Positions 1,915-21,277 of a stretch of DNA of 29,304 nt are shown here, piece after piece. Origin of the DNA: a virus; IMG/VR virus record IMGVR_UViG_3300038436_000099, positions 1 through 29,304 of that record. One strand, 5' to 3'. Each line of letters starts with the position of its first letter. Position 1 is the first letter of the stretch. Below the pieces are notes generated by a model that was not told where the DNA came from, did no database searches, and was given only the letters and a program-made list of their open reading frames with translations. Both the position numbers and the translations under genes were made by a program.

Positions 1915-3263
1915 TGGAACTCGAAGAACTTTTACAGAAAATCACCGAGCTTACCAATGCGGTGAAAGAGAACAAAGGCACTGATGGCCTGAATCGTGAT
2001 GCCCTGGTTGCTGATCTGAAATCTCTGATGGATGAATACAACCAGAAGCTACTTGATGCCATGCCCCAGCGCAAAGGCGAACAGTCTGAAATCCCGCCGA
2101 TGCAGCAGGTCAAAGGCCGCTATGCCAGTGTTGCCAAATCGTTTGAAAACCACGGCGAGGCCAAGATCAATGGCACCAAGGTTATGCCGGTTGATCTTTA
2201 TCTGGCGAAACTGCTGATGGAGCGTGCTGTTGAACAGAAACACCCCGGCGCGAAAGCCCCCAGCGATGACCTGGTACAGATGGTCAAAGCGATGACCTCC
2301 ACCGGAGCTGGAACCGGTGCTGAATTGGTGCCTGAGAATCTGGCCGGCGAAATTTGGGAAGATATGTACGCGGCTTCCCGTGTCTTTGCTGATCTGCCTG
2401 AAATGCCGATGACCAGCGACCCGCAGGATATTAGCTTGCTGGGCAATATGTCCTTTGCCAAGGGCACCCAGAACACCGCTGCTACCGCGCAGGACATTGC
2501 CACTGCTGAAAACAAACTGACCACGACTGAACTTCTCGCTGAGGTCAATTGGTCTTACAACCTGGATGAAGATGCTGTTATTGCCATGATGCCCGCGCTT
2601 CGGTTGGAAGCTGCCCGCGCTGGCGCTGAGTACATGGATGCCTTTGCGCTGAACGCTGATGCCACCAACGCGGCCATCGGCAACATCAACCTGGATGATG
2701 CTGATCCTGATGATGATAGTTACTTCCTGTCTGCTGGCCAGGATGGTTTACGCCATCTCTTCCTGGTGGACAACACCAATCAAGGCTCGAACGTCAATGC
2801 CGCTTTGGATGACACCAAGATGGCCGCGATTCTTGCCAAATTGGGCAAATACGCCCTGGATTATGCCAATGTCCGCATTGTGCCAGATGTGCAAACGTAC
2901 CTGAGCATGCTGGGAATGACCAACGTTGCCACGGTTGACAAATACGGTCCTCAGGCCGTAATGGTAGCCGGTGAGCTGGCCAAGTATCGCGGTATTCCGG
3001 TGATTCCTTCCGGCGTTATGCCTCTGACTGAAGCGGATGGTAAGGTTTCCACCACCGGAAGCAACAACACCAAAGGGCAGCTTGTGGCCTATAACCGCCT
3101 GATGTGGCGGCGCGGGTCTCGCCGTGGATTGACCATCGAAATTGACCGCTCGATCCAGAAACGGCAAATGATCATCGTTGTGTCCTTCCGCATTGCAGTG
3201 GGCTGTCGTGGTACGCGCTCGACCGCGAAGCATACCGCTGGCGGTTACAACATCACTGTCTAA
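1914..3263 (+). CDS. HK97-fold major capsid protein
   Basis: The protein has 449 residues. The N-terminal ~110 residues are helical and charged, like the delta/scaffold domain removed by the prohead protease encoded just upstream. The rest fits the HK97 fold: a TSTGAGTGAELVPENLAGEIW loader strand, ADLPEMPM, long E-loop/P-domain segments and a terminal GCRGTRSTAKHTAGGY-like end. It would form the icosahedral shell. No gene-specific promoter was seen; it is read with the upstream protease. Codon use is G+C-rich and regular, as expected for an abundant protein. No dispersed-repeat copy lies in this gene, the longest gap in that family (about 2 kb). Confidence 0.9.
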   Translation: MELEELLQKITELTNAVKENKGTDGLNRDALVADLKSLMDEYNQKLLDAMPQRKGEQSEIPPMQQVKGRYASVAKSFENHGEAKINGTKVMPVDLYLAKLLMERAVEQKHPGAKAPSDDLVQMVKAMTSTGAGTGAELVPENLAGEIWEDMYAASRVFADLPEMPMTSDPQDISLLGNMSFAKGTQNTAATAQDIATAENKLTTTELLAEVNWSYNLDEDAVIAMMPALRLEAARAGAEYMDAFALNADATNAAIGNINLDDADPDDDSYFLSAGQDGLRHLFLVDNTNQGSNVNAALDDTKMAAILAKLGKYALDYANVRIVPDVQTYLSMLGMTNVATVDKYGPQAVMVAGELAKYRGIPVIPSGVMPLTEADGKVSTTGSNNTKGQLVAYNRLMWRRGSRRGLTIEIDRSIQKRQMIIVVSFRIAVGCRGTRSTAKHTAGGYNITV

Positions 3264-3288
3264 GTTTTATCGGTTGTTCTCCTGATAA

Positions 3289-3329
3289 GGTGGGTGGGTG
3301 GCTTTACTCGGAACTGCTACTCACCCACC
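3289..3329. other. Inverted repeat in capsid-decoration intergenic region
   Basis: GGTGGGTG at 3289-3296 is complementary to CACCCACC at 3322-3329 with a 25-base loop. There is no T tract, so a classical terminator is unlikely. It may attenuate or stabilise transcripts between the capsid gene and the next gene. Confidence 0.3.
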
Positions 3330-3360
3330 GAACCGAGATTATTTGATTGTGAGGCAAAGA

Positions 3361-3771
3361 ATGACAAATGAACTTGATCCCAAATTTGGTGAATTGATCA
3401 CTCTACAGTTTTTATTGGCCAATGTGCCAGCGAATGCCACCACCGATTTGACCTTGCCGGGCGGCAATGCTGGTCTGGTGGTGCCAACGGGTTATGAATT
3501 CCATCCAACATTTTTGCAGATATCATCCAATGCGGATTTAACCGCGGGAACCGCGACTGCAAAAGTTACCGCTGACGGTACTGAGCTGGCCAAAGGTCCG
3601 GCGCCGGTCTTGAGCGATACGGTTCAAGCAGCTTCCGCTGTTGTGCGATTCGGCCTTGAACCGGTTGCCGCTGGTGATGTTGTTGGCGTGAGTGTTACCA
3701 CCACAGCAGCCTTTTTGCCAACTACGGCCGATGTGGACGCGATTCTGGCGGGGTATCTGGTGCCGGCATGA
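3361..3771 (+). CDS. Small head structural (decoration-like) protein
   Basis: This is a 136-residue protein starting at the ATG at 3361, chosen because a GTGAGG ribosome site lies about 8 bases before it; an in-frame GTG at 3298 has no such site. It is rich in Ala, Thr and Val, with predicted beta strands (LITLQFLLANVP, YEFHPTFLQISS, VVGVSVTTTAAF) and no charged coiled coil. That suits a beta-sandwich head decoration or stabilisation protein. Position directly after the capsid gene supports a head role. I do not recognise a specific family. The stop codon overlaps the next start (ATGA at 3768). Confidence 0.6.
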   Translation: MTNELDPKFGELITLQFLLANVPANATTDLTLPGGNAGLVVPTGYEFHPTFLQISSNADLTAGTATAKVTADGTELAKGPAPVLSDTVQAASAVVRFGLEPVAAGDVVGVSVTTTAAFLPTTADVDAILAGYLVPA

Positions 3772-15767: not shown

Positions 15768-15894
15768 CATTTGGGGAATTGTAGGGCTATGTATTGAGTG
15801 TACCTCCAGAGGGATTCGAACCCTCGTTTTAGCCTTGAAAGGGCTGACAAGTTAGTGTTTTAACTAACATCTCAGCCTGCCGCGTTTTTAATGA

Positions 15895-17990: not shown

Positions 17991-18710
17991 ATGACTGATC
18001 AAACACTTGTAAACGACCCTTGGGAAATTGCTGATAACGCAAAACCGCGTGAATTCGAATACTACGGTCTGGTAAAAGCGGATGTCTGGTTTGGATTCTT
18101 CCCCGGCGGTGGTCAAAAACCGGTTCCCTTTGATCCTCAGCAACACCCGGTTGAAAAGCGTGTGGTGATGATTGATATCCAAATCATCCCGATTGTTGAC
18201 CAGAACATCACCTTTGATGTGAAGCAAAACTATACCGATTTCAGCCTGGATTGGACAAAGGTAACTTTACCTTCAATCAAAGCTTTGGGCTTAGATGGTC
18301 TACGCTCTCTCAATGGCAAATTCGCCCGGGTTACCTTGGTTGATGGCAAACGCGAAAAGAAGGATGAAGACGGCAACAAGACCGGCGAATTCTACAAGAC
18401 CTTCAAATTCCTTCAAGTTTTTGCAGATGAACAGGCATGCCGGCAAGCGTATAGCGGCGCTTCCCCCGCTCATACTGAGCCCGAGCAACCCACCAGCAAT
18501 GGGAACGGTAATGGCGCAGTAAGTGCGGACAAAATGACCGCTTTGAGTTTTGCGAAGGTGATTGTTACCAATGCCGCAAAAGACCAAAAAGATCTAAACG
18601 TGATCCGCGAAACCATTGCAACTAATTTCGCAAATTACCCGCTGATCAACCAACATCTGACCGTTGATTCCCCAGAAGTGATGACCATGATCATGGAGGC
18701 AATGAAATGA
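17991..18710 (+). CDS. Likely ssDNA-binding (OB-fold) protein of the recombination module
   Basis: 239 residues, GGAG 9 bases upstream. Residues 20-150 alternate strands (FEYYGLVKADVWFGFFPGG, VVMIDIQIIPI, FDVKQNYTDFSLDW, FARVTLVDGKREKKDEDGN, YKTFKFLQVFADEQACRQAY), compatible with the OB fold of phage ssDNA-binding proteins; the TFKFLQVFADEQAC ending is seen in proteins next to RecT/Erf. A linker holds AHTEPEQPTS (dispersed repeat, 18463-18484). The C-terminal ~70 residues are a separate helical domain. In the same transcriptional direction as the RecT, exonuclease and ERCC4 genes. Confidence 0.5.
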   Translation: MTDQTLVNDPWEIADNAKPREFEYYGLVKADVWFGFFPGGGQKPVPFDPQQHPVEKRVVMIDIQIIPIVDQNITFDVKQNYTDFSLDWTKVTLPSIKALGLDGLRSLNGKFARVTLVDGKREKKDEDGNKTGEFYKTFKFLQVFADEQACRQAYSGASPAHTEPEQPTSNGNGNGAVSADKMTALSFAKVIVTNAAKDQKDLNVIRETIATNFANYPLINQHLTVDSPEVMTMIMEAMK

Positions 18711-18919
18711 ATCTGCAATTTATTTTTGAAACCGCCACAGAGCGCCAGGCGCGAACTGAGTATGAAGATACTTTGATTGAAGTCTATGTGCCTGAAGCTG
18801 GTGAAATGACCCGCGAAGAAGCATTGGTTTTGGCGCAAGAAAGAGACCTTCAGGCCTCAATTGAATTGCGTAGTGACGTGATTATGTTGCGTAACCTCGA
18901 AAAAGCTGCCAGCCAATAA
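18707..18919 (+). CDS. Small acidic hypothetical protein
   Basis: 70 residues starting on the ATGA overlap. Acidic and helical (TATERQARTEYEDTLIEVYVPE, MTREEALVLAQERDL). It could be a small partner of the ssDNA-binding protein just upstream. No family recognised. It is the last gene before the structured RNA region. Confidence 0.55.
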   Translation: MNLQFIFETATERQARTEYEDTLIEVYVPEAGEMTREEALVLAQERDLQASIELRSDVIMLRNLEKAASQ

Positions 18920-19211
18920 ATAACTTACGCTTTGGCAGTGTCCCCCCTCACATGCCAACCCGGATAGAGTAACCGAGAAAATTTATCGGTAGATTTTTGG
19001 TTGAACTGGCGGTGTCTCTCGCTAATTTGGGAAAACATCGGCCTGAACGGATAGCTTCCGGGAGTGGGAAGTGAGCCGAGCCGCCAGCAATAAGTAACCT
19101 AAAACCTCAACCCTAAAACTCTCGACGTCAGAGGATGAGTGTGAGCCGGGTTACCGGCAAGGAATTGCACCAACAAAGAGGCGTGACAGCCGGGAGAGAC
19201 CGGCGAACCAT

Positions 19212-19301
19212 GAGGTGGCGGCGTGGTGAGACACGATTTGGGCTAGAAACCCACGAACGGGACAGGCCGTAACCTGCCAGGTTTGAATCCTGGACACCTC
19301 A
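19212..19301 (+). tRNA. tRNA-Ser(AGA)-like, type II
   Basis: 90 bases. Acceptor GAGGTGG pairs with ACACCTC (19294-19300) with one mismatch at the base; A73 discriminator. D arm CGTG/CACG (19222-19225/19232-19235). Anticodon arm TGGG-CTAGAAA-CCCA at 19239-19253, anticodon AGA. Long variable arm ACGG/CCGT (19257-19260/19267-19270). T arm CCAGG-TTTGAAT-CCTGG. Position 8 is C instead of the near-universal U, and A34 is rare in bacteria, so this may be an atypical or decaying gene; identity (Ser or Leu class) is uncertain. Confidence 0.55.
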
Positions 19302-19544
19302 CTTACCACGCTGTGCGTATGTTACAAGGACGTGCCCGGCGCAAGCAGCGCACACGAGTATGCCGGCTGGAGTGCTGACATGATAAGGCGGCATGAGAAA
19401 GCCAGGAGCCAGTAGAGCATGAATCGGCTTGACGGTCGGAGAGACGACAATCGAAGCGGTGTCCACCGGACTATGACCGGATAAACATCGGCGCGCTTGG
19501 GGCAGGCAAGCCGAGCCGCAGAACTTTTACAACTGATTTGATAT

Positions 19545-19735
19545 GAGGCGGCGGCGTGGTGGGAACACGCTGATACATACTTAACTCTCGAATGTCGATC
19601 CGGCCCGGTGTGCAGTAATGTACACGATAGATGCGGGGCAGGGCGGAAATCTTCTGGAAACTGTTCGAGGCACCAGTCGAGCAAAGCGCGGCAGTATGTA
19701 ATTGAGAGAACCAGGTTCGAATCCTGGTCGCCTCA
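19545..19735 (+). tRNA. tRNA-like gene with ~110-base insertion in the anticodon region
   Basis: 5' GAGGCGG pairs with 3' TCGCCTC (19728-19734) followed by A. The D arm GCGTG/CACGC (19554-19558/19566-19570) is close to that of the tRNA at 19212. T arm CCAGG-TTCGAAT-CCTGG at 19711-19727. CATAC (19576-19580) can pair with GTATG (near 19694-19698), so a stem like an anticodon stem encloses about 110 extra bases. Could be an interrupted tRNA (intron or insertion) or halves of two genes. No group I intron core was recognised. Confidence 0.4.
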
Positions 19736-19738
19736 CTT

Positions 19739-19798
19739 GGGAAAGAGAATAGACAGCAAAGCGAAGTGAACCATGCTCAAAGATCGTATCTCTTTCCC
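19739..19798 (+). ncRNA. Long hairpin resembling an acceptor-stem-closed RNA
   Basis: GGGAAAGAGA and TCTCTTTCCC form a perfect 10-bp stem around a 40-base loop; the 3' strand is followed by ACA. The loop contains GCGAAGTGAACC, words like the two repeats of the array at 24543-25290. No T arm, so not a standard tRNA. Confidence 0.4.
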
Positions 19799-19802
19799 AC
19801 AT

Positions 19803-19902
19803 GAAGAAGGTTTGCATATTTTGGTAAATATGTGAAGTCTCGAAGCCGAAGTGAACCAGATCTTATAAACGTTTTTCTCCGGTTCGAATCCGGCCTTCTT
19901 CA
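19803..19902 (+). tRNA. tRNA-like gene with extended middle
   Basis: GAAGAAG pairs perfectly with CTTCTTC (19895-19901), discriminator A, then CC, so a partial CCA is encoded. D arm CATAT/ATATG with a loop containing GG (19815-19832). T arm centred on TTCGAAT (19883-19889), with four of five stem pairs. At 100 bases it is longer than a class I tRNA; the anticodon arm cannot be fixed by eye. The extra part again contains GAAGTGAACC. Confidence 0.4.
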
Positions 19903-20235
19903 CCTAAAGGAGCCAGCTATCAGGAGTGAACCAAAACCTTTAAGCGCAAACCTAACCATTCTGACGGGCGCGAGAACGCAACGGGCTTTCCTCCTTTCCC
20001 CGTATCGTGGGGGCAGTACCCACGAGCCCATTTAGCGAAGCTTCTGAGGTCGTTTCCTCATAAACGAGAAGCCAAAGCCTGTGAGAGCTGGGTAACGGGA
20101 AACAGCTAAAAAACCAGCACACAACTTAATATGAGCCCCATTGTATGTATGCAGCGGAAAAATCCGGTCTGTTGGCTAATCGTTCGACCCCTTATTGTGG
20201 TGATAAGGTTCAGCAAATTCAAATGGGGCTCACCT

Positions 20236-20298
20236 GGGGCGCGAAGGTTTCTCAGATTCCCTCCCATCTCTGACCAGGTTCAATTCCTGGGCGCTCCA
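20236..20298 (+). tRNA. Short tRNA-like gene lacking a D arm
   Basis: GGGGCGC pairs with GCGCTCC (20291-20297) with one G-U; A73. T arm CCAGG-TTCAATT-CCTGG at 20274-20290. Only 31 bases separate the acceptor strand and the T arm, so there is room for one arm (TCAGA/TCTGA). Either a D-armless tRNA or a tRNA 3' half with a fortuitous 5' match. Confidence 0.35.
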
Positions 20299-20327
20299 CA
20301 AGATATTTTTTAGAGAAAGGATTAACC

Positions 20328-20537
20328 ATGATCGAAGTTGATGAAAAAGAATTAGCCGAGATCGGCAAGAACGTGAAAGCCGTTTTGAAGGGTAAGCACC
20401 TGGTGATTGTGGTGGATGTAAGCCAGGAAATTGGCGAGAGCGCAAGCGGCAAAATGATGATGGTTGCTTCCACCAGCGGGTTTACTAATCTGCCAGGGCA
20501 CATGAAAGCTAATATCAACATCGGAAAGAAGCACTAA
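20328..20537 (+). CDS. Small hypothetical protein
   Basis: 69 residues with AAAGGA upstream. It has an alternating strand/helix pattern (ELAEIGKNVKAVL, HLVIVVDVSQEIGES, MMMVASTSGFTNL). Translationally coupled (TAATG) to the ERCC4 nuclease gene, so probably a partner in DNA processing. No family recognised. Confidence 0.6.
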   Translation: MIEVDEKELAEIGKNVKAVLKGKHLVIVVDVSQEIGESASGKMMMVASTSGFTNLPGHMKANINIGKKH

Positions 20538-21277
20538 TGATAACGGCCGTAATTGTTGACTCACGCGAACCTAAGTGGATCAAAGATTTGAAGTTTGGCG
20601 GCGTGTCAGTTTCCATCACCATGCTTGAATCAGGTGATGTTTGGTGTGCTACTGATGATGGAAAAATGCTAGTCATCGAGCGAAAAACACCCGATGATCT
20701 GCTGGGTTCGCTAAAAGATGATCGTTTGTTTGTGCAAATGGCCGGGCTTGCTGGTTTACGCGAATTGGGACATTGGCCGTATCTGATGATCACCGGGGAT
20801 CTGGTTTGTGGTCCAAACGGCAAGATCATCACTCCCCGCGGTGAAACCGGCTGGTCATGGAACTCAGTACATTGGGCACTTCTCACAATTCAGGAAATGG
20901 GAATATTTGTTACCTACGCGCAAAGTGATACCGATTTTGAGGCTGCTGTTATACGTTTGGGCAACCGCGAACGCACTGAAAAAATGATGATTCCGCCAGC
21001 TAGATTGGGAAAAGTGCTGGGCATCCAAGCTGGTTTCCTTTGCGGATTGCCCGGAATTGGCCCAGATAAGGTAGATAGCATTTTGAAAGCGTGTGGCTCG
21101 CCGGCATGGGCATTGGTGGCGCTCACAGATGCAACAACCCAATTGCCGGGAGTTGGCCAGGGTATCAAGAACAATGTGCGCTATACCCTGGGGCTGAAAG
21201 ACAATCAACAAATGGGTGTAATCCTGAATGATCAGGATAAAGAAGAACTTTCAATACTTAGATTAGGAGAACAATAG
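20537..21277 (+). CDS. XPF/ERCC4-type structure-specific nuclease with HhH domain
   Basis: 246 residues. The N-terminal nuclease shows the ERCC4 signature: VIVDSREP (Asp8, Arg10, Glu11) and VIERKTPDDLLGSL (Glu48-Arg49-Lys50, Asp53), which binds metal and cuts branched or flapped DNA. The C-terminal ~90 residues contain two helix-hairpin-helix elements (LCGLPGIGPDKVDSIL, TQLPGVGQGIKNNVRY) for DNA binding. In phages this family can resolve recombination or replication intermediates. Neighbours encode RecT and an exonuclease, so a recombination role is likely. Confidence 0.85.
   Translation: MITAVIVDSREPKWIKDLKFGGVSVSITMLESGDVWCATDDGKMLVIERKTPDDLLGSLKDDRLFVQMAGLAGLRELGHWPYLMITGDLVCGPNGKIITPRGETGWSWNSVHWALLTIQEMGIFVTYAQSDTDFEAAVIRLGNRERTEKMMIPPARLGKVLGIQAGFLCGLPGIGPDKVDSILKACGSPAWALVALTDATTQLPGVGQGIKNNVRYTLGLKDNQQMGVILNDQDKEELSILRLGEQ

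Follow-up and report, generated by a model that had tools for sequence, protein, structure and literature searches.

The tRNA-like domain of tmRNA (RF00023) keeps the upper half of a tRNA and carries an insert in place of the anticodon arm. Mimicry of tRNAs, with pseudoknots beside the mimic, is also known from plant RNA viruses, which have tRNA-like structures, and from mascRNA-type elements; mascRNA is cut by tRNA enzymes. Bacterial RNase P, RNase Z, and the CCA-adding enzyme read mainly the acceptor stem, the T arm, and the elbow, and the two RNases do not read the anticodon. In phages, GOLLD and ROOL are giant structured RNAs found near tRNAs, and the put antiterminator RNA of HK022 has two adjacent hairpins.

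The locus described here resembles each of these systems in part. It lies in an IMG/VR virus record of 29,304 bases (G000, analyzed in full and hereafter called the window), in which positions 18920-20327 are non-coding and are located between two phage genes on the + strand. Judging from the sequence, the best explanation is that the region is the same-strand non-coding part of a phage operon and would yield a multi-module structured RNA. Two of its elements belong to a tRNA-like class designated R1. R1 resembles the tmRNA domain but has no mRNA-like domain and differs in the D-loop region (a 5-bp GUGGGA hairpin), and the tmRNA model finds no match in the window record at E ≤ 0.01. It shares the acceptor, the D hairpin, and the canonical T loop with tRNA (RF00005) and tRNA-Sec (RF01852), whereas its scores are below gathering and an anticodon arm is absent in its 22 members. 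Unlike the plant-virus and mascRNA-type mimics, the elements of the region lie inside DNA phage operons, in the interior of the transcript. A link to GOLLD or ROOL had been raised by the first-pass annotation of this DNA, but no Rfam match to either is found in 18700-20500 at E ≤ 1. The likeness to put RNA is confined to the P5/P6 part described below.

R1, the pseudoknot (PK) module, and the P5/P6 hairpin are not covered by Rfam 15 in the tested loci. A literature search, with most subscription journals outside its scope, gave no description of these RNAs and nothing for the two motif strings, and passages of PMC9378689 do not describe them either. Since no catalogued RNA family matched, the tRNA mimics of these phages appear to be of a kind not described before. 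We rate R1 as new as an RNA class, and its role is what we infer from sequence.

The host is probably a member of Chloroflexi, since of the five genome contigs with a relative of the ERCC4 gene, three bear the name Chloroflexi or Anaerolineae in their titles (the other two are titled "bacterium" and Gammaproteobacteria). In the class to which the Chloroflexi MAG G014 belongs, a search of 396 genomes finds the ERCC4 gene in the centre genome only.

Architecture of the structured region

The genes and RNA features are as follows.

17991-18710 (+): gene for a 239-aa protein of no known family, upstream of the region
18707-18919 (+): 70-aa gene directly 5' of the region
19008-19088 (+): block partly common to L002 (48 nt at 93.8% identity, window 19037-19084)
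19125-19204 (+): P5-GAC-P6, with P5 formed by 19125-19129 and 19180-19184, and P6 (GAGAGA loop) at 19189-19204
19211-19302 (+): tRNA-like element 1, class R1, with acceptor, D hairpin (GUGAGA loop), 40-nt insert, and T arm
19428-19449 (+): second GAC/GAGAGA hairpin, with the variant stem GTCG/CGAC
19544-19736 (+): tRNA-like element 2, also of class R1, in which the insert measures 140 nt
19738-19799 (+): hairpin domain (11 bp) separating element 2 from element 3
19802-19904 (+): tRNA-like element 3, with an acceptor of about 9 bp, a 7-bp D-like hairpin (UUGGU loop), and T arm
20035-20118 (+): double-pseudoknot module, from a descriptor and covariation on 6 sequences; P1 20040-20045/20067-20072, P2 20046-20049/20056-20059, P3 20051-20055/20062-20066, P4/P5 to 20118
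20130-20235 (+): long hairpin domain with a 10-bp stem, its order kept with L010 (alignment)
20236-20301 (+): tRNA-like element 4, with acceptor, one hairpin, and T arm, without a D arm
20328-20537 (+): 69-aa gene directly 3' of the region
20537-21277 (+): ERCC4-domain nuclease gene
past the ERCC4 gene (+): gene for a RecT-like annealing protein, then a PD-(D/E)XK exonuclease gene

The first-pass annotation had read the region as a structured stretch holding abnormal tRNA-like genes, and its description of the letters holds. Four T arms (stems from 19277, 19711, 19878, and 20274) each have an acceptor partner pairing at 7/7 positions, the 5' strands of which start at 19211, 19545, 19803, and 20236, respectively. 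Dinucleotide shuffles of 18920-20327 (n = 300) give a mean of 0.02 such T arm/acceptor pairs and a maximum of 1. The odd traits also agree: the implied lengths, C at position 8, A34 (first element), the long insertion (second), and the missing D arm of the fourth. Of the two acceptor-like stems said to lack a T arm, the 11-bp stem is located at 19738-19799 and the 10-bp stem, as read from the sequence, at 20133-20142 with 20222-20231. Among the interpretations offered, a large non-coding RNA that includes tRNA mimics comes nearest to our results, so that the interpretation as a whole stands in part.

The four elements are not equally well supported. Element 1 scores 66.4 bits with the R1 model, in which it is a training-set member, and its acceptor, D, and T arms are all formed in the minimum free energy (MFE) fold. 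Element 2 scores 55.7 bits (E = 9.3e-10) though it was held out of the model. Element 3 has weak scores (R1, 18.8 bits, E = 0.34; tRNA-Sec, 21.1 bits); its MFE z is −2.7, and the acceptor and the D-like hairpin fold while the T arm is absent from the MFE structure. In element 4, the acceptor, the one hairpin, and the T arm are present in the MFE fold. The hairpin domain at 19738-19799 has a z of −3.43, with an equal fold in 0/200 shuffles. The P6 hairpin ends 6 nt upstream of element 1; the P5 helix of the window was read by eye. A block like 19008-19088 is seen by eye at about 19462-19521.

Known models and finders recognize little of this. ARAGORN calls a single tRNA in the region, tRNA-Ser(aga) at 19212-19302. 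Rfam gives no match anywhere in the window at the gathering threshold. At E ≤ 1, tRNA-Sec is the best Rfam model for the region, though below gathering (28.8 and 21.1 bits versus 47), with one further antisense match; RF00005 gives 14.5 and 11.4 bits versus a cut-off of 29, with the other two elements unlisted. The combination of acceptor stem and T arm that marks a tRNA is present four times in the region and, for R1, is backed by covariation. A BLAST search against cultured phages finds no homologues of the region, with short, weak matches only for two R1 elements. A further sub-threshold tRNA-like match lies elsewhere in the window, at 15801-15856 on the − strand (RF00005, 23.7 bits).

A tRNA-like class without an anticodon arm

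We are highly confident that R1 is a structural class of tRNA-like RNAs. It consists of a 7-8 bp acceptor, a 5-bp D hairpin with a GUGGGA loop, and a canonical T arm, and 8-140 variable nucleotides occupy the place of the anticodon arm. The D hairpin of element 1, used as the pattern GGYGGYGTGGTGRGACACR against IMG/VR, retrieves 30 stretches, 26 of them distinct. A covariance model matches 22 of the 26 at E < 1e-4 over its full length; 14 of these members come from the 15-sequence training set and 8 from outside it. The other four (L049, L051, L057, and L058) look like chance pattern matches. In single-sequence shuffle tests, p < 0.05 is reached by 15/26 pattern matches, including L063 via a more distant T arm.

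In the 15 training sequences, 94.1% of stem cells are paired versus 76.6% in shuffled alignments (29-45% in slid controls), and the acceptor, D, and T stems hold 40 double-change cells versus 12. This covariation is not fully independent, because the alignment rows had been picked for acceptor pairing. Elements outside the training set agree with the model, namely window 19544-19736, L077, L078, L014, L075, and others. So do two R1 elements of L089, likewise from outside the training set, in which the GTGGGAA loop is unchanged but the D stems differ (TTGTG/CACAA and GCACG/CGTGC).

The place of the anticodon arm should be noted. None of the 22 elements has an anticodon arm (5-bp stem, 7-nt loop, U33) next to the D arm, and an anticodon-type arm anywhere in the insert occurs in 2/22, versus 1.18 in shuffles. 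CCA does not directly follow the acceptor in any of the 22. R1 elements are not decoding tRNAs.

R1 is mostly single, at about one per phage record. On 30 phage records, the model matches 26 at E ≤ 0.01, the match in G008 being the ordinary tRNA of L013, and G001, G004, G005, and G006 give none. A simple ORF survey assigns an upstream ORF to 29 elements, and in 26 of them it shares the strand of the element; the distance from the end of the ORF to the element is 4-40 nt in 11/23. The caller over-calls in GC-rich DNA, and ORF-overlap counts for P6 sites were set aside for this reason. The neighbours of R1 comprise many unrelated genes. In a PHROGs scan of 10 proteins, four match ssDNA-binding families (L044, L050, L059, and L191) and one matches RecT (L070); the remaining scanned proteins, including the 239-aa product of the window (AlphaFold pLDDT 60), have no ssDNA-binding or RecT match.

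In bacterial genomes, the R1 model gives E ≤ 1e-4 in 36 of the 396 genomes of the class of G014. Six of these loci were inspected; four are ordinary tRNAs and two are R1 (G102 and G218), with two copies in G218 and one in G102 as verified by eye. None is found at E ≤ 1e-6 in 378 genomes of the phylum of G434.

The double-pseudoknot module and the P5-GAC-P6 hairpin

A PK module of about 100 nt follows a tRNA or tRNA-like element in L010, L011, L013, L063, and L089 and also occurs at window 20035. Its helix P1, starting with GCGA, encloses the crossing helices P2 and P3; hairpin P4 follows, its loop pairing downstream (P5), and the module usually ends in hairpin P6 with a GAGAGA-type loop, which is missing from the window copy. 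Over six sequences, P1-P3 are paired in 90/90 cells, both sides have changed in 13/15 pairs, and the covariation is 1.04 versus 0.32, with 39-48% paired in slid controls. Four of the six copies were spotted by eye, while those in the window and L010 were obtained by a descriptor that itself demands pairing. A relaxed descriptor gives 11 matches in 1.9 Mb, of which the five listed bear the P4-P6 tail, versus 6 in reversed sequence; the window copy is outside that set. As read from the sequences, the distance from the acceptor strand to the start of the module is 3 nt in L011, L013, L063, and L089 but 1-2 nt in L010. Before the window module, a degenerate tRNA-like element at about 19986-20028 is only suggested.

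The P5-GAC-P6 hairpin is widespread. The pattern GTGACAGCC(N)GGAGAGAC(N)GGC occurs in at least 120 IMG/VR stretches, of which 80 (L147-L226) were used in the site tests. P5, which lies outside the search pattern save for its last GT, is perfect (5 Watson-Crick pairs) in 33/80 sites, versus 4.8 in shuffles and 9.3 in swaps. A tRNA or tRNA-like element starts 3-13 nt downstream of P6 in six sites; the other 74/80 have none at that distance, and the hairpin is therefore not only a tRNA leader. Viewed from the tRNA side, a P6-type hairpin lies within 45 nt upstream in 9/35 tRNA or tRNA-like rows, three of the nine coming from the P6 scan itself. Rfam at gathering finds only tRNAs in 12 P5/P6 loci, and at E ≤ 1 nothing at the motif in seven loci (coordinates as read). 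The put RNA was considered as a counterpart of P5/P6 and rejected, the GTGACAG-GAGAGA hairpin being absent from HK022 22000-34000.

The P6 pattern occurs in two of the 396 genomes of the class of G014. In G287, also of this class, a copy lies within a spacer of a CRISPR array with 117 exact repeats. This spacer agrees with window 19182-19204 at 23/23 nt, and over 30-33 nt it also matches copies on the chromosomes of G287 and G218. The match of a second spacer, to window 19175-19201, is weak (89%, E = 0.04). Of the G218 copies, one is near HTH/MerR-type and ParA genes and the other beside MoeA genes, and they are read as putative integrated elements. By eye, the recurring order in these loci is mini tRNA-like, P6, tRNA-like, pseudoknot module, P6, and tRNA-Met.

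Several further arrangements were seen. L188, L190, and L206 have tandem P5-GAC-P6 hairpins (stems ACGCC/GGCGT or ACACC/GGTGT), and in L149, L165, L200, and L209, P6 lies just 5' of the start codon of the same kind of gene, after a longer ORF. On the L182 contig, 19 ordinary tRNA genes score above gathering, and a P6 hairpin precedes one of them by 12 nt. In the cultured Morganella phage IME1369_02 (L268), 3001-3169 is a relative of the L203 element region and lies between a small ORF and a holin gene.

Possible roles and the same site in related phages

The reading that we favor, at a probability of about 45%, is that the tRNA-likes punctuate or protect phage transcripts through processing. 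They keep the acceptor stem and the D-loop/T-loop elbow, a variable insert replacing the anticodon arm, and the host tRNA-maturation machinery should recognize them, because its enzymes read the acceptor, the T arm, and the elbow. Cuts by these enzymes at the tRNA-like ends would separate the upstream gene from the downstream nuclease and recombinase genes, leaving stable ends, with the P6 hairpin as a guard at one side and the pseudoknot at the opposite one; elements processed like tRNAs would thus act on the transcript as punctuation or protection. Stem covariation, the held-out members, the lack of an anticodon arm, the same-strand upstream ORFs, and the spacing of the PK module and P6 argue for this reading. 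The absence of CCA, the 74/80 P6 sites that are tRNA-free downstream, the absence of R1 from L002 and L005, and the 15/26 result in the shuffle tests argue against it.

Tentatively, the modules may form an RNA toolkit common to phages of Chloroflexota and other hosts, in which cargo-bearing anticodon-less mimics, PK modules docked at the 3' end of the tRNA, and the 5' GTGAC/GAGAGA hairpin work as a relay. If so, while the phage replicates and recombines its DNA, the relay would usurp the tRNA-maturation or translation machinery of the host. The families are backed by covariation, are missed by tRNA finders and Rfam, and occur in phages of a phylum that has received little study as well as in others, the P6 hairpin alone accounting for the IMG/VR stretches and the host spacer match given above. 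A tRNA body without an anticodon and with free cargo is a natural counterpart of the engineered tRNA scaffold, and whether phages mimic tRNAs to process, protect, or arm transcripts becomes directly testable.

It is unlikely that the elements act as decoys or inhibitors, that is, as abundant tRNA-shaped RNAs titrating a host factor that binds the elbow or the acceptor, such as a defence effector, RNase P, EF-Tu, or the CCA-adding enzyme. The locus differs in make-up between related phages, as an arms race would lead one to expect, and a host CRISPR spacer does match the P6 hairpin; however, R1 without an anticodon arm is an improbable lure for anticodon nucleases, and many R1 members lie shortly after a gene. 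Distinctly unlikely is one large folded RNA in the style, not the family, of GOLLD and ROOL, with the tRNA-likes and pseudoknots as scaffold domains. Several modules do stand in a row, and the PK module and the next hairpin domain keep their order between the window and L010, but the mostly solitary occurrence of R1 and the missing GOLLD/ROOL match do not fit. That the folds form a cis-regulatory leader tuning translation or transcription of the ERCC4/RecT genes is very unlikely: in relatives without R1, the ERCC4 gene is still preceded by a hairpin and a pyrimidine tract (CCTCCTTT), whereas R1 itself is found beside many unrelated genes.

Relic or intron-bearing tRNA genes in decay, both raised by the first-pass annotation, are highly implausible despite the ARAGORN call and the ordinary tRNAs that L013 and L089 have at this site or close to it, since the acceptor, D, and T stems of elements 1 and 2 show compensatory changes in other phages, the PK module of the region covaries as well, the shortest R1 members have 8 and 13 nt at the place of an anticodon arm that 0/22 members possess, and Rfam group I and group II introns give no match in the region at E ≤ 1. 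Elements 3 and 4 could be relics.

In related phages with the same gene order, the non-coding DNA that separates the ERCC4 gene from the small gene differs in length and make-up. At this site, L003, L014, L075, and L089 carry tRNA-likes with an R1-type D hairpin, L010 and L011 have tRNA-likes of other kinds, and L013, L076, and L089 have near-ordinary tRNAs. In L012, L036, L037, and L038, all that is present is a short interval containing a hairpin or a small ORF. This differing content indicates a variable site, not a fixed gene. R1 is dispensable, because L002 and L005, among the closest relatives (ERCC4 identity 68% and 64%, respectively), have no R1 match in their records.

In L013, a phage of the same family, an 87-nt element at 3281-3367 (+) reaches 47.3 bits under the tmRNA model, whose cut-off of 47 is exceeded in this one record of 20; the element resembles the tRNA-like domain of tmRNA, the mRNA-like part being absent. 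A strong hairpin that follows a pyrimidine tract (CCTCCTTT or similar) and is itself followed by a ribosome-binding site is seen upstream of the ERCC4 gene in L005, L011, L012, L013, L036, L038, L074, L084, L086, and L088, and at about 19985-20028 in the window. This arrangement is probably a leader that includes an anti-Shine-Dalgarno tract and precedes the nuclease gene or one next to it.
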